Made by a program: the position numbers and the translations under genes
Shown: positions 14,906 through 50,110 of the stretch, piece by piece
How the letters are laid out: every line of letters starts with the position of its first letter
Numbering within the stretch: the stretch's first letter is position 1
Notes under the pieces: model-generated
What the model was told of the DNA's origin: nothing
Seen by the model: only the letters and a program-made list of their open reading frames with translations
The model's database searches: none
Assembly: GCF_000015205.1 (NCBI RefSeq)
Contig: NC_008701.1
Location: 124,001-188,000 of the forward strand
DNA from: Pyrobaculum islandicum DSM 4184
GTDB lineage: Archaea; Thermoproteota; Thermoprotei; Thermoproteales; Thermoproteaceae
Length of the DNA stretch: 64,000 nucleotides
Direction: 5' to 3'

Positions 14906-15145
14906 AACTACTCCACCGTGAGGTATTGTTCTGTTTGGCCCATAGATATGTACGGCACGGGGAGAAAAGTCTGCACCTCGGCGGCTTATACACAAAGCCC
15001 AGACCGCGGCGCCGAAGCGTAAGACAATACGCCACACCGCCGGCCGAAGACGCCGATAACTATGGGCAGAGGTATCAAGAGCTAATAGAGAAGACAAACC
15101 CGCCCCGGCGACTACCTCACTTTTAACCCCCTAACTACTCCTCAT
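14906..15145 (+). pseudogene. TnpB C-terminal remnant of a second family
   Basis: The plus strand ends in a frame reading RYQELIEKTNPPRRLPHF and stop, matching the C-terminal RRYWELLEKAKQPTSP of other scars here (19870-19945, 26890, 17480). The preceding 150 bases (from GTGAGGTATT) are also shared with 19746 and 49548. Stops and frameshifts rule out function. The GC-rich right-end segment follows directly. Confidence 0.55.
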
Positions 15146-15307
15146 ACATGAACGACGTCTGGCCCCCGGGGCAGCAGACGGGGGTGCGAAGACAGATACA
15201 AAATAAACAACTAGCGGCCGGCCCCATATGACCCGCCCCCCGCCCCGGTGCACCCGAGGCGGGCCCTTAAGTCCCCCAGGGAGGGGCCAAGAAAAAGATA
15301 GGGGGAC
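15146..15307 (+). repeat. GC-rich structured right-end segment, copy A (candidate omega-RNA)
   Basis: This segment directly follows the TnpB C-terminal remnant and matches 49947-50110 closely along its length. It contains GC-rich inverted repeats, including GGGCCC ... GGGGCC around a CCCCC/GGGG core, and ends AAGATAGGGGGAC. Position and structure fit the right end and omega-RNA scaffold of an IS200/IS605 element, but transcription is not shown. Confidence 0.5.
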
Positions 15308-15628
15308 GTTAAGGATGTTTTCTCTTGACAAGCGGCGAGACTTCCCGACGTCTTGTGGCGTTGTAGTGCCGCTGGGAACCGGCGGCGTATAAGCAGCGCA
15401 GTCGGATACTTTAGTAACTTAATCCTAATCTGAAGGGCGAGGTTTCAAGCCCGAATAATCGGGTCGGATTATGATATACAAGCGCATTCTAATCTAGGGA
15501 CTTCACTTCTGTTGCTACACGCCGTTTGAGCTTGGGGCGGTTTTCTTCTTCGCGTTTATTGGGAAAGCTTCCGCGCTTTTATACACACGAAAGGCTTAAA
15601 TACGCATGGCACATCTGCGGTGGTGGTG
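15308..15628. other. Gene-free stretch with a solo hairpin motif
   Basis: No gene is seen. At 15431-15448 lies AAGGGCGAGGTTTCAAG, half of a motif that recurs as a full stem-loop at 19586 and elsewhere, followed by a segment (CGAATAATCGGG ... ATTATGA) also shared with 19612-19637. It is probably a left-end scar of a TnpB-type element. Confidence 0.4.
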
Positions 15629-17032
15629 CTAACAAGCGGGTACTCTGCCTTCTAGATATTTGACAAGCTTTTCTACAAGTCCCCCGTCGTATACCACACG
15701 AGCTATTTTACCGTTTTTTAACTCGAGGCGTTTTATAAACGCCGGGGAGAGGCCGCCGTGGGCTAGGAAATTTCTCGCAGTTCTCTGGTCGACTCCTCTC
15801 TCTGCCAGCCGCCTCCTCTCTTCTTCAACTTCTTTTTTCGCCTCGGCTAGGCTTTCGCTTAACACATCTACATAGCTTTTATCTTCAAGATGTTTCAAAA
15901 CCTCCTCTTTGTGTCTCCAGACGGCGAGCCACAGCTCTGGCCAAACTACTGCATCTAGGCCGTACATCGTGGCTACTACCTTCTGGAGGAGGGCGACTTC
16001 TTGTGTCGCAGTTTTTAAAACTTCAGAGATGTATATCGCGCCGCGTCTTTCATATTCTCTAGCCACTGCGGCGAGATAATCCACAAGCGATGCGGCCGCC
16101 TCGCCGCTGAATATATGGCCTAGCTCTTTCCACACTTGATACATCACCACGTCTACAACAACCTCCGCCCGCTGGTGTTCATATCTAACCACGTGGTTTT
16201 CTAAAACTGGCCTAGACTCCATAAGTCTCGGAGGTTGTTCAGGCAGGCCGAAGGTGGGCTCCCACCCGTCGTATATAGCGCCGGGGAAGCCCAAGGCCGC
16301 CGCGCCATTAGACATAAGCCATATCATCCTACCAAAACGTGTACACCTCGCCTTGCCCACCGCCGTTAAATTACGGAGGGCCGACACCTCTCTAACTCTT
16401 TGTAATACCGTCTGCAGCCCAGACACGTCTAGTATTTTTAACTCTGGCGTCGTCTCCACCCGCGGGGGGCGTACAGATGAGATACAAGTCTTCTCCTCTA
16501 CGTCAGCTGGATACGGCTCAGAGTTGACTAAGACAAGTCTATTCTCCATCCCCCGGCCAATTGCGGCTGCGACAACGGCGTAAAGCGCCGAGACTATGAC
16601 AAAATTTAGGCCGTGGGTTAGGTCTAGAAAGATAAACGAAGCGCCCTCGGCCCCCTCCCACACTGCTTTAAACACGTCTACAAATATGGCCTCGGGAGTC
16701 CCCTCAAATTTCCAGCCGTAGTACAGCCCCATCCCAGGGACAGATATAACTCTCGCCTTAACTCCCAGCTCCTCTGCCCACTTCATATACTGCTCCACGG
16801 CGCGTCTCCTCAAATCGCCGCCCTCCCTTGGGTTAACTACAGAGTCGGAGCCGACTACTAAAAGGTCGACGTCTAAACCAGTTAGGTATTTAAGTAGAGA
16901 CCCGGCGGAGGTACAGCCGACAAATCTAGCAGACCTCCCCCCAAATGCCCTCCCACCCAATTCCTCAGCTACATACCTCGCCCTCTTCCACGCAGGCGGG
17001 TACCCCCACACACTTACTACAAAAACCCTCAC
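15629..17032 (-). CDS. csx1: Csx1-family CARF-HEPN CRISPR-associated RNase
   Basis: The N-terminal half is a CARF domain: MRVFVVSVWGYP, then LDLTHGLNF at residues 136-144, the ligand-binding signature of Csx1/Csm6 proteins. The C-terminal half is helical and ends in a HEPN domain with the RNase motif RNFLAH (R420, H425). Such proteins are activated by cyclic oligoadenylate made by type III Cas10 and then cut RNA non-specifically in the cytoplasm. The length of 467 residues is usual. No cas10, csm/cmr genes or CRISPR array is in the window; a cas6 lies 10 kb away. The start is GTG, with TTTTTAATG about 25 nt upstream. Confidence 0.85.
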   Translation of the reverse strand: MRVFVVSVWGYPPAWKRARYVAEELGGRAFGGRSARFVGCTSAGSLLKYLTGLDVDLLVVGSDSVVNPREGGDLRRRAVEQYMKWAEELGVKARVISVPGMGLYYGWKFEGTPEAIFVDVFKAVWEGAEGASFIFLDLTHGLNFVIVSALYAVVAAAIGRGMENRLVLVNSEPYPADVEEKTCISSVRPPRVETTPELKILDVSGLQTVLQRVREVSALRNLTAVGKARCTRFGRMIWLMSNGAAALGFPGAIYDGWEPTFGLPEQPPRLMESRPVLENHVVRYEHQRAEVVVDVVMYQVWKELGHIFSGEAAASLVDYLAAVAREYERRGAIYISEVLKTATQEVALLQKVVATMYGLDAVVWPELWLAVWRHKEEVLKHLEDKSYVDVLSESLAEAKKEVEEERRRLAERGVDQRTARNFLAHGGLSPAFIKRLELKNGKIARVVYDGGLVEKLVKYLEGRVPAC

Positions 17033-17280
17033 ATCTAGAGAAACACAGTCATTAAAAACAATGCCCTCCCGCCAGATGTCGTTTCCAGGCTGGTTGAGGC
17101 CGTTTTCGCAACCTAGAGAAGTTTGTCTTCCCTTGGGTTATTTCGCGACAGAAGGTGAGAAGATGTTGGATATCCACATCTGTCGAGACGCCTGCCTAAG
17201 ACATCTTAGACATCTCACGACGGCGCCCGGGAGCAAACGGATATCGCCACATCATCTACACGTTTCTCAAACGTCCCTCT
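17033..17280. other. Gene-free stretch upstream of csx1
   Basis: The first 40 bases hold the csx1 promoter. No supported gene was seen in the rest, which borders transposon debris. Confidence 0.3.
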
Positions 17281-17450
17281 ATCTTTCTCTTGGCCCCTCA
17301 CCTGGGGGACTTGGGGGCCCGTCTCGGGTGTGCCGGGGCGAGGGGGCGGGTCACCCGGGGGACGTGGCGCCAAGTCGTTAACTTTCCCCATCTTCGCGCC
17401 CCCGTCAACCGCCCCGGGGGGCCAGGCGCCGTTAATGAAATAGAGAGAGT
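17281..17450 (-). repeat. GC-rich structured right-end segment, copy B (candidate omega-RNA)
   Basis: Read on the minus strand this is the same segment as 15146-15307 and 49947-50110, from CTCGTAACTCTCTC through the GGGCCC ... GGGGCC inverted repeat to GATAGAGGGACG. It lies immediately downstream of a TnpB C-terminal remnant on the same strand. Confidence 0.5.
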
Positions 17451-17775
17451 TACGAGGTTAAAAACACGACTGTCGCCGGAGTGGGGAAAGTTTGTTGTTT
17501 TGTCTTCTGGAGGAGTTCCCAATACCTCTTCTCTGTCTAAATCACGGACACATTGTCTCTATGCGCTCTGAAGCCGCAAGAGGGGCAACGCATGAAGCGG
17601 CCTTTCTCCTCTGCCATCTTAGCCCCGCGACGGGGGCGAACGATCGAATACAGCCGCTCCTCCAAGTACGGAATGCCATACCACTGGGATAACTCCTTCA
17701 ACCTCTTTCTCAGCTGGCCGAGGCCATCGAGGGGTGTATCAAGGCTTTGACGGAGAGATACAGAATGACCGCGCC
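17451..17775 (-). pseudogene. TnpB C-terminal remnant
   Basis: The minus strand encodes GLGQLRKRLKELSQWYGIPY, then LEERLYSIV, GAKMAEEKGRFMRCPSCGF and RAHRDNV, the RuvC-III/zinc-finger end of a TnpB, continuing in another frame to a KKRYWELL-like C-terminus. One zinc ligand pair has changed (VRPRRG where CPKCG is expected). The N-terminal two-thirds are absent. Confidence 0.75.
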
Positions 17776-19585: not shown

Positions 19586-20110
19586 CCCCGCCCTAAAGGC
19601 AAGGTTTCAACCACGAACAATCGGGCTAGTTTATGATTGCCACCTCTCGCGTTAACTATAGTAATAATCTGAACATAATTAGCGCACAGTTTGAAACTCC
19701 CTCCTTCTGTCTCAGCGTCTCGATTAACTTCACAAGCTGATCAACTGTGAGGTATTATTCAGTTTCCATTTTATGTGTTTAACCCATGGACACATGTAAT
19801 ACGTGGGAGGAAAGCTTGTACCTCGGCGTCTGAATAACCGTAGAGACAGAATTCCGCTGTTGTAGACAAAGAGGAGGTACTGGGAGTTGTTGGAAAAAGC
19901 AAAACAACCCACTTCCCCCTCTCAGCAACCACCACACTCTTAAGCTCGTAAAACTATCTTACCTACGAGGGACCCGGCGGCTAGGGGACACAGCCAGCCC
20001 CCAATGACCCAAGCCCCCTTGCCCGTGGCCGCCCAAAAGGCGTCTCCGCGGGCGGGCCCCAAGCCCTCCGGAGAGGGCCGGGCGCCACAGGGGGCTCTGG
20101 TACCCCGCCC
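19586..20110 (+). mobile_element. Deleted TnpB element (left hairpin, C-terminal remnant, right-end segment copy C)
   Basis: In order on the plus strand: the stem-loop CCCCGCCCTAAAGGC with AAGGTTTCAA (19586-19610), a remnant that shares GTGAGGTATT with 14920 and 49548 and ends in the TnpB C-terminal frame RRYWELLEKAKQPTSP (about 19870-19945), and a GC-rich right-end segment (19945-20105) matching the copy at 26723-26870. This looks like a 0.5-kb internal deletion product of a TnpB element, similar to a MITE. Confidence 0.55.
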
Positions 20111-40498: not shown

Positions 40499-41506
40499 GT
40501 GTATAAACCTCGTATATACCAGGTTGAGGTCTCTACGGCATGTAACGCCAACTGTGTATATTGCCCAGTCTCCTACTTTAGGCAGAGGGGCCTCTGGCCT
40601 GTGAAGCTCATGGATTTTGACCTCTACAAGAGGTTTCTCGCCGAGGTAGAAGAGGCTGAATATATCCATCTGCAGGGGTGGGGCGAGCCGCTTTTACATC
40701 CGCGTCTTGTAGAAATGGCGGCTTCTGCAAAAAAGATAGCTAATGTCGGAATTACGACAAACGGAACGCTTCTGAGAGAGGAGGTGACTCGCGCTCTTGT
40801 AGAAATCCCCATAGATATCCTCGCCGTTACCTTCGCCGGGGCTAGAGCCGAAACTCACAACAGATATAGAGAGGGAAACGACTTCAACGTAGTCTTTAGG
40901 AATGTAGAATATTTGCTAAGGATCAGGCGTGGGAAGCCAGAGGTGGTGGCCATATATATGCTACTTGGCGATAACTACAGGGAGCTTCCTGGGTTTGTAA
41001 GAATGGCGGCTAGGCTCGGGGTAGACCGGGTAAAAGTAAGTAATTTAAATTATTTATTCAACACCGAGGGGGCGTCGTTAAAAGCTTTTTCAGACACGTG
41101 GGAGAAGCCTAGAGAAGTCGAGAGAGCTATTGTAGAGGCGCAACAGATCGCAAGAGAGGTGGGGGTTGGCTTTGTGACAGATAACATAGCGCCATTTGAA
41201 CTCGCAGAGTGTCCCGAAACGCCGACTAAAGCCGTTTTTATAACTGTCGACGGCGATGTATGTCCATGTGTCTACCTTGGGCTTCCCTGGCCTGAGATTC
41301 CCCGGTTGTTTAACATACGTCTTTTTAAAATCCCTAGGACCTGTTGGGGAAATTTAAAAATGGAGAGCTTAAGAAAAGTCTTGAACTCGGAAAAGGCAAG
41401 GGAGTTTAGGTCGAGGTTTGAATATAGGAAGTACAACATGGACGTCGGCGCCATAGGCGAGCCTCCAGATGTCTGTAAGACTTGCTATAGGCTGTTTGGA
41501 GTGTGA
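40499..41506 (+). CDS. Radical SAM protein with SPASM-like C-terminus
   Basis: The radical SAM cluster ligands are C15, C19 and C22 (ACNANCVYC). Later residues (WGEPLLHPRLVEM, GITTNGTLL) match the SAM-binding barrel. The C-terminus has cysteine groups ECPETP, CPCVYLG, TCWGNL and CKTC, which fit a SPASM or related auxiliary-cluster domain. The start is GTG and the gene diverges from dsrM, suggesting a role in cofactor or peptide maturation for the Dsr system. It could also be a heme d1/AhbC-like enzyme. The substrate is not known. Confidence 0.72.
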   Translation: MYKPRIYQVEVSTACNANCVYCPVSYFRQRGLWPVKLMDFDLYKRFLAEVEEAEYIHLQGWGEPLLHPRLVEMAASAKKIANVGITTNGTLLREEVTRALVEIPIDILAVTFAGARAETHNRYREGNDFNVVFRNVEYLLRIRRGKPEVVAIYMLLGDNYRELPGFVRMAARLGVDRVKVSNLNYLFNTEGASLKAFSDTWEKPREVERAIVEAQQIAREVGVGFVTDNIAPFELAECPETPTKAVFITVDGDVCPCVYLGLPWPEIPRLFNIRLFKIPRTCWGNLKMESLRKVLNSEKAREFRSRFEYRKYNMDVGAIGEPPDVCKTCYRLFGV

Positions 41507-41513
41507 CCCGCCC

Positions 41514-41690
41514 ACCTCGTCCCCCTTAACTCTTTCTTGGTCTCTCCCTGGGGGGCTTGGGGGTCTGTTTTGGGTGTGTTGGGGTGGGGGTGGGTCTTAT
41601 GTGGCTGTGGGTTGTTGATTTTCTTTGTCTGCCGCCGGGGGGCCGGCGTTGTTCATGTGTAGTTGGGGGGTTAGGTGGTGGTCGCCGGGG
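41514..41690 (-). repeat. GC-rich right-end segment, copy D, rich in G-to-A changes
   Basis: Read on the minus strand it follows the same order as copies A, B and E (ACATGAACAACGCC..., ...CCAGGGAGAGACCAAG), but most differences are G in the other copies replaced by A. It lies downstream of a TnpB remnant on the same strand. Confidence 0.5.
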
Positions 41691-42040
41691 GGTTGTTTCT
41701 AGCCCCCAGTACCTCTTCTCCACCATGTCATGGGGGCGTTGTCTCTGTTGTCTGAGAAGCCGCAGGTGGGGCAACGCATTACGCGGCCCCTCTCCTCCGC
41801 CATCTTAGCTCCACAACGGGGCAGACCGTGCTGTAGAGTCGCACCTCTACATATGGAATGCCGTACCACTGCGCCTCTTCAGCTGGCCGAGGCCGTCTAG
41901 GAGGTGTTTCTTCTCTCCGCTCCCCTCCTTCAGCTCCCGGTAGCTCTCCTCCACTGCATCAACTACGACGGCGGCTTGGCGCTCTCTGGCCAGTTTTATG
42001 ATCTCGCGGGCGGCGTTGCCCCTTCCAGTACGAGCCAACT
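41691..42040 (-). pseudogene. TnpB C-terminal and middle remnant
   Basis: The minus strand encodes REIIKLARERQAAVVVDAVE, ESYRELKEGSGEKKHLLDGL and GQLKRR, the stretch around the RuvC-II glutamate and bridge helix of TnpB, then after a frameshift a KRYWGLE-like C-terminus. Stops and frameshifts show decay. Confidence 0.7.
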
Positions 42041-42290
42041 AGAGACGGCCATATACGCGACGCCCGCCGTGTTGGCCACGGCAGCGGTGGCACTGAGCGG
42101 CGCCGTCGTAAAGGCGGCGTTGGGAGGCATGTTGTTGACCTTCGCAGCCAGAGCCGTCGCTAGCAACTTGCCGACCTCGCCGGCGTCATACGCCGCCGTT
42201 GCCACCCCAAGTCTTGTTCAATTGACAATACCCATCGTGGCGTTGGCGGCGACGCCGTGAGAACCGCCGTAAACCCGTTTTTAACTCACT
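42036..42290. repeat. Duplicated Ala-rich segment, copy 2
   Basis: This matches 22082-22360. On the plus strand it reads ETAIYATPAVLATAAVALSG, then TFAARAVASNLPTSPASY, then PIVALAATP and a stop; if coding it would be a small hydrophobic protein, but there is no clear start. It abuts the TnpB remnant, as a similar block does near 22 kb. Confidence 0.45.
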
Positions 42291-42555
42291 TCCCCTAGGT
42301 CTGTACAAATCAAAACGCCTCACCTGAGTTTCACGTTGAAACCCAGGTGTGTCGCACCGTTTCACCTTTCACACACCGTCAACACAACACTGGCTTTTCT
42401 CTCCCACGCCACATACGCCTATGAACACATACAGACTTCTGTACCAAGGTGCCGAGGGGCGAGGTTTTCAATTGTAATCTGCCCCCGTCCTGATGGGCGG
42501 TAAATTTCTCATAGTTGAATAAGAAGAGAGAAATAATAAATAAGTAGCTTCAGTT
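42291..42555. other. Gene-free stretch with a long hairpin
   Basis: CACCTG-A-GTTTCA ... TTGAAAC-C-CAGGTG at 42321-42349 forms a nearly perfect stem. GAGGGGCGAGGTTTTCAA at 42454-42471 is a variant of the solo hairpin motif. A TATA-like AAATAATAAATAAG precedes the dsrK-like ATG at 42556. Confidence 0.45.
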
Positions 42556-49669: not shown

Positions 49670-49933
49670 ATGGCGCTGACTCTATCATACTCTCCGCCAA
49701 ACTTGGCTGAATTCGGTGAATTCGAGACTGTTTTGTGTCTGCTACCGCTTTTCATTTCGCCTTTTGTGCCCATCGTTGCGTTCGATATACTTGCGCTACC
49801 CTTTGCCACAATTTTAGAAATTGACCAAACCAACGACGCTAGAGTGGCAATCATGGGTCTGATGGCCATCACAAGCGTCTCTGTGGTCAGCAACCTCAGA
49901 GCGCATAGAGACATCACATTTTTAACCTCGTAA
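49670..49933 (+). CDS. Small two-helix membrane ORF, fused at its end to TnpB debris
   Basis: The 87-codon frame has hydrophobic stretches ETVLCLLPLFISPFVPIVAF and ARVAIMGLMAITSVSVVS. The end NLRAHRDITFL resembles the TnpB end FRAHRDNVSV in its frame, so the natural C-terminus was probably lost. No promoter is obvious. It may be a degraded gene. Confidence 0.3.
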   Translation: MALTLSYSPPNLAEFGEFETVLCLLPLFISPFVPIVAFDILALPFATILEIDQTNDARVAIMGLMAITSVSVVSNLRAHRDITFLTS

Positions 49934-49946
49934 GTACTTCTCACCC

Positions 49947-50110
49947 ATGAACGGCATCTACTTGGCCCCTGGGGCGGCTGACGGGGCGCGCAAAGTGATA
50001 CGGAACAAACGACCAGCGGCCGGCCCCCGGTGAGCCGCCCCCTCGCCCCGGTGTACCGGGGGCGGGCCCTTAAGTCCCCCGGGGAGGGGCCAAGAGAGAG
50101 ATAGGGGGAC
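49947..50110 (+). repeat. GC-rich structured right-end segment, copy E (candidate omega-RNA)
   Basis: Nearly the same as copy A at 15146-15307: CATGAACGGCATCT, the GCGGCCGGCCCC region, GGGCGGGCCCTTAAGTCCCC and AAGAGAGAGATAGGGGGAC. It follows TnpB C-terminal debris. Confidence 0.5.

Follow-up and report, generated by a model that had tools for sequence, protein, structure and literature searches.

The TnpB right end found at positions 41514-41690 of a genomic window of Pyrobaculum islandicum, here called copy D, belongs to a relic subfamily of eight copies whose one-strand bias is genuine, strong and old. On the strand in tnpB sense, G has been replaced by A at many columns, and C by T at very few. 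For D, the most fitting reading of this strong bias is that mutation was biased on the plus strand, which is antisense to the element.

Copies of the TnpB right end

The window is the whole stretch of DNA analysed, 64,000 bases in length, and corresponds to bases 124001-188000 of the single-contig genome of P. islandicum DSM 4184 (1,826,402 bases, completeness 99.95%, G000 in locus names). Right ends D, E and B used as queries matched the genome at 21, 38 and 40 places, respectively. Forty right-end copies have been aligned, and 36 were kept: D, seven relatives and 28 copies denominated ordinary. Copies c1296, c976, c1032 and c1253, each only partly right end, were left out before counting; the set never included short fragments or the copy at window 19880-20110. 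The latter, on the plus strand, is a more divergent right-end-like stretch following a tnpB-like 3' remnant. The copies compared in the preliminary description, in which both their positions and the sequences quoted for B and D were correct, are listed below.

15126-15307, plus strand: copy A, ordinary right end without adjacent tnpB, identified by alignment
17273-17458, minus strand: copy B, ordinary right end, identified by alignment
41514-41690 (aligned core 41519-41671), minus strand: copy D, TnpB right end (omega-RNA scaffold region), A+C content 0.78 on the sense strand, identified by alignment with 35 other copies and by composition
49925-50110, plus strand: copy E, ordinary right end, identified by alignment

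A Csx1 CARF-domain gene (15629-17032, minus strand; PF22230, E 8.6e-27) sits between right ends A and B (window 15126-17458). A tnpB 3' remnant, alignable with the tnpB ends of 24 other copies, precedes D in the same sense. Like the right ends and omega-RNAs (reRNAs) of IS200/IS605 and IS1341-type elements, the copies either follow the 3' end of tnpB or stand alone, are rich in GC, can fold in the sense orientation and terminate at a conserved motif. The eight copies of the subfamily depart from this type, being A+C-rich on the sense strand (0.70-0.78, versus 0.50-0.61 in ordinary copies) and having a predicted fold that is broken. By the criterion of the conserved sense fold, D is probably a non-working relic of the family. 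The ORF found in this end (41526-41771, minus strand) has no Pfam match, and a coding explanation has been discarded on this ground. No Rfam family was found within the window at the gathering score.

Strand bias in D and in ordinary copies

Read in tnpB sense, 26 columns at which A, B and E agree with one another have a different state in D: 16 changes are G>A, none is C>T, two are T>C and eight are of other kinds. Seven of the 16 G>A columns have A in all five nearest sisters of D also, and four have A in D alone. Pairwise, 39 differences separate A from D (19 G>A, no C>T), 49 separate B from D (22 G>A, no C>T) and 57 separate E from D (28 G>A, one C>T); T>C ranks second in frequency, with 8-10 changes per pair. 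The one-sidedness originally noticed is therefore genuine, but G>A makes up only about half to three fifths of the differences, not almost all of them. Where at least 70% of the ordinary copies agree, 21 of the 47 G columns read A in D, and none of the 45 C columns reads T (p 6e-8). As had been stated, sense G>A in D is C>T on the plus strand, and the pattern is unlike symmetric drift. The asymmetry is beyond chance. It is also visible when D is compared with its five sisters where these are unanimous (G>A 7/29, C>T 0/58, T>C 1/6; p 3e-4). Strand skew is stronger in the D end than in any other 150-base stretch of the window: G+T reaches 0.85 on the plus strand, the next most extreme value being 0.27.

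The 28 ordinary copies, each scored versus the rest, are balanced, summing to 78/1482 G>A and 62/1446 C>T, and none reaches p 0.05 for strand bias. The full alignment and count of substitutions per strand, proposed at the outset as a check, thus confirms the excess of G>A for the eight copies and finds balance in the ordinary ones.

The eight-copy subfamily

The bias had been described as a mark of D alone; seven further copies, at other loci, show the same pattern. The clade is made up of D, S904, S943, S758, S773, S723, c787 and c258, the first six being D and its five nearest sisters. The eight lie at separate loci, six on the plus and two on the minus strand. Relative to the ordinary consensus, G>A and C>T are respectively 17/47 and 0/45 in S904, 17/47 and 0/44 in S943, 12/47 and 0/45 in S758, 11/47 and 0/45 in S773, 13/47 and 1/45 in S723, 20/46 and 2/44 in c258, and 20/47 and 3/44 in c787. 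Counted by column, 35 of 53 G columns have A in one or more of the eight copies, and 4 of 52 C columns have T (p 3e-10).

In the tree, support (SH-aLRT/bootstrap) is 91/97 for the split between the eight and the 28 ordinary copies, and 97/99 for the group of D and its five nearest sisters. Shared base composition could draw c787 and c258 towards the six, but an overlapping stretch of alignment columns (65-77) is also missing in all eight. Searching the genome with c787 gave no further full member of the subfamily. A degenerate 25-base A-rich pattern had no match in the genome contigs searched, a set from which the P. islandicum genome itself may be left out, and no A-rich version was found with D as query in 18 other genomes of the family. 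An old A-rich subfamily, which had been anticipated as evidence against the original reading if carried by related genomes, does exist, but was found only inside the P. islandicum genome.

S723 and S773 have identical tnpB remnants, in which G>A is seen at 6/96 and C>T at 0/73 positions (p 0.04), in the same direction as in the right ends. The tnpB remnants of the other clade members have no G>A bias (p 0.18-1).

Polarity and distribution of the changes

As outgroup, four ordinary-looking right ends from another Pyrobaculum species (G009) were used. Of the 35 columns, 33, 27, 29 and 26 respectively have G in these ends, so that A is the derived state. Among the same columns, six have A in all eight copies, four in the six nearest only, nine in c787 and c258 only, and four in D only; by this pattern of sharing, several branches of the subfamily were subject to the bias. 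The latest changes of c787 and c258 are unbiased, amounting together to one G>A and three C>T. The positions in D are the following.

41624, 41600, 41571, 41568, 41566, 41564 (within 41564-41624, minus strand): G>A common to all eight copies
41608, 41591, 41577, 41569 (within 41564-41624, minus strand): G>A common to the six nearest copies
41585, 41580, 41579, 41541 (within 41541-41585, minus strand): G>A in D only, with G in 27-28 of 28 ordinary copies
41616, 41613, 41606 (G>A) and 41609 (T>C) (within 41606-41616, minus strand): D versus all sisters, weaker polarity

Changes private to D are hence four to seven, and four are secure. Only four of the seven G>A that set D apart from its sisters are securely its own, because A is found at 41616 in 27 of 28 ordinary copies and at 41613 also in c787; at 41606 ordinary copies have G or C.

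Mosaic history of D

D shares with the S758 region (G000:C1:758373) a long segment, interrupted by a patch of probably different origin.

41530-42423, minus strand: segment of about 900 bases common to D and S758, tnpB 3' remnant and flank
41747-41755, minus strand: patch of the tnpB remnant matching c1253 and unlike S758, a sign of recombination or gene conversion

Over 336 bases upstream of the right end (42091-41756) D and S758 differ by one substitution and one deletion; inside the right end they differ by 13 G>A. The bias in D is confined to the right end. A hypervariable patch at 42201-42129 (minus strand), with several indels versus S758 and GC-richer on the D side, is located inside the otherwise near-identical duplication.

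The last 17 aligned bases of D are identical to those of S904, and the A's at 41650, 41626 and 41625 are common to D and S904/S943, though upstream D is closest to S758. D thus appears to be a recombinant, its end at least partly assembled from other copies. Given the c1253 patch and the S904-like terminus, its A's may have arisen elsewhere. The same observations would fit an import, in which the whole end was gene-converted from an A-rich copy since lost from the genome, and D was not mutated in place. We regard this as unlikely: no donor carrying the A's proper to D is found in the genome, and the question would merely be shifted to the donor.

RNA folding and selection on structure

In folds predicted at 37 C, the sense-strand consensus of ordinary copies has 28 pairs (27 present in three copies), and each of the 28 copies keeps 25-28 of them. 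By the same prediction the fold is lost to various extents in the subfamily, where the consensus pairs kept are 11/25 in D, 14/24 in S904, 15/24 in S943, 18/24 in each of S723, S773 and S758, 7/17 in c787 and 7/16 in c258. Read in antisense, the pairs able to form, mostly G.U, are 24/25 in D, 24/24 in the five sisters, 15/17 in c787 and 14/16 in c258.

The contrast between antisense and sense pairs in D, together with the full retention in the five sisters, would be accounted for by selection for an antisense RNA structure, since C>U changes keep G.U pairs there, and sense-strand C>T would break them. But the persistence of antisense pairs follows by simple arithmetic when G>A occurs and C>T does not. 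Antisense folds do not exceed shuffled sequences in stability (z -0.1 to -1.8), and G>A changes placed at random yield antisense energies no worse at conventional cut-offs, the real ones falling inside the random range in four of four comparisons (fractions 0.086, 0.23, 0.098 and 0.83). Such selection is quite improbable.

Alternatively, selection may have silenced the sense omega-RNA by unfolding it. Sense pairs are disrupted by G>A and T>C but are mostly left intact by C>T and A>G, and the observed spectrum would then arise without any mutation bias. Both favoured classes are indeed pair-breaking, and the predicted sense folds are broken. Structure also shapes the spectrum of ordinary copies, which have the opposite tendency at paired columns (C>T 26, G>A 12) versus G>A 66 and C>T 36 at unpaired ones, counts that are non-independent. 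In the clade, however, G>A is equally common at columns unpaired (17/27) and paired (18/26) in the consensus fold, and C>T is rare at unpaired columns (3/27); with a stricter definition of unpaired columns the figures are 5/8 G>A versus 1/9 C>T (p 0.05). None of the predicted-unpaired C's was turned to T in D, either from S904 (0/33) or from S758 (0/22). Real G>A sites are no more disruptive than random ones, sense energies falling inside the random range in four of four comparisons (fractions 0.12-0.80). The unfolding of the sense RNA by selection is accordingly not a likely cause. Random placement and the comparison of paired with unpaired columns disfavour both forms of selection, and the placement of sites, neutral with respect to folding, favours a one-strand mutation bias on ends freed from RNA structure.

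Sequence context of the changes

One-strand-only C>T, as expected for cytosine deamination of single-stranded DNA, was found on the antisense strand, in the column counts given above. The context of the changed cytosines, a check suggested from the start, gave a divided answer: changes proper to D are enriched at CpG (5/9 versus 3/25, p 0.017), but no enrichment was found at the level of the clade (p 0.5). From S904 to D, CpG sites changed at the G side in 5/9 cases and at the C side in 0/9. Deamination driven by CpG methylation was rejected for the clade, only one side being changed and the clade-level enrichment being absent. Dense one-strand C>T is produced in mobile DNA by deaminases in APOBEC-like hypermutation. 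The eight copies resemble such products in density and strandedness, and differ from them in lacking a fixed clade-level context and in having changes spread over many branches.

The single-stranded transposition intermediate

The preliminary description suggested cytosine deamination of an exposed strand, for instance in the single-stranded intermediate of IS200/IS605 transposition. Deamination is faster in single-stranded DNA, and these elements move as single strands, according to passages of PMC8612924 and PMC2806898. The same passages describe, for ISDra2 and IS608, excision of the strand having the target motif 5' of LE, which bears 5'-TTGAT, LE, RE and the guide-encoding flank. By analogy the excised strand would be the tnpB/omega-RNA sense strand, from which the guide RNA reads out of RE the same way. 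Deamination of the moving strand would then give sense C>T, found at 0/45 columns in D. The strand exposed in D would be the antisense one, which contradicts this intermediate as the source. In addition, Y1 TnpA (PF01797) has no match in the genome; the same family was matched in 5 of 14 control genomes. The intermediate is hence a most improbable source of the bias. The TnpB zinc-ribbon family has 57 matches in the whole genome. An IS607-type affiliation is not indicated either: one resolvase was found (G000:C1:718980), and no tnpB is among the ORFs listed beside it.

Neighbouring genes and possible exposure of the antisense strand

A gene convergent with D adjoins its right end (delimited at 41510-41700), the stop codon being 3 bases away from it, so that read-through would be antisense to D.

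40499-41506, plus strand: radical SAM/SPASM gene, convergent with D (PF04055, E 1.6e-20)

Convergent genes adjoin also S904 (TrmB-like, distance -12), c787 (Cys/Met PLP enzyme, distance 34) and c258 (CoA transferase, distance 15), which makes antisense read-through plausible for these four copies. S943, S773 and S723 have no adjoining convergent gene, and the same A's are carried by S904, which has a convergent neighbour, and by S943, which has a codirectional one.

No dependable dependence of the bias on neighbour direction was found in ordinary copies. Their singletons are balanced overall (11 G>A, 14 C>T). The C>T:G>A ratio is 11:4 with codirectional and 3:7 with convergent neighbours (p 0.049), but the signal comes mostly from c1300, and without it p is 0.63. 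A hand tally of trio counts gave 33:21 for 13 copies with a convergent neighbour within 100 bases versus 26:22 for 11 codirectional ones. Copy c1300 (G000:C1:1300018-1300204, minus strand) is an ordinary copy of opposite tendency, with seven singleton C>T, no G>A, and 28/28 consensus sense pairs. In ORF calls, some of them doubtful, 13 of 38 right-end copies end at most 40 bases from the stop of a convergent ORF, as if the 3' ends of genes were favoured for right-end insertion or survival.

Strands enriched in G+T through C>T, accompanied by A>G, are reported as a mark of exposed leading and non-template strands in passages of PMC10030826. The asymmetries associated with transcription and replication are similar to the present one in that a single strand gains G and T by these same changes; they are known mostly as weak genome-wide skews, whereas here the asymmetry is near-total (35 versus 4 columns) over about 150 bases. 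A leading/lagging replication asymmetry at the source locus would agree with the statement, in the same source, that the leading strand is G/T-rich in most bacteria, as is the antisense strand of D. It is nonetheless highly unlikely, as the eight copies are found in both orientations, and the flanks of D and its tnpB remnant lack such a bias.

Proposed origin of the bias

The events may be ordered as follows. The subfamily would first have been no longer held to the sense omega-RNA fold. G>A, with some T>C, would then have accumulated on the tnpB-sense strand, which corresponds to C>T, with some A>G, on the antisense strand. The cause may be damage, cytosine deamination in the first place, to an antisense strand open more often than its partner. 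Exposure would be obtained most simply if this were the non-template strand of transcription entering the end from the 3' side. Strand opening may be assisted by antisense G-runs: G3 quadruplex motifs are found in antisense in 28 of 36 copies, and in sense in none of 36. D would be the most advanced copy, a mosaic of several relatives, with some A's perhaps acquired via gene conversion. We lend roughly even credence to release from the sense fold followed by a one-strand transition bias, probably from damage to the more open antisense strand.

Exposure by antisense transcription is the likeliest of several mechanisms, and agrees with the strand. An R-loop, the other source of exposure first proposed, would fit if its RNA were antisense to the element; a loop formed by the sense omega-RNA would expose the sense strand instead. 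In these data antisense damage is indistinguishable from a sense-strand lesion, such as alkylation, turning G to A and T to C. It is possible, though doubtful, that the antisense strand was repeatedly opened by a process specific to TnpB right ends, either antisense transcription with R-loop or quadruplex, or a strand-opening step of the element itself, and that dead ends record which strand was exposed.

A literature search gave no paper combining Pyrobaculum, TnpB, right end and copies, and TnpB was not mentioned among the matches listed for strand-specific hypermutation. A strand-biased spectrum in the end of a transposon need not reflect a single-stranded intermediate; here the strand is the wrong one. 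The sense-strand A+C content is a simple mark for right ends whose predicted omega-RNA fold has been lost. If the bias is mutational, the about 40 copies hosted by one genome would allow damage specific to one strand to be studied in a hyperthermophile-like archaeon, as a natural experiment in which working, balanced ends would serve as control for dead, biased ones.
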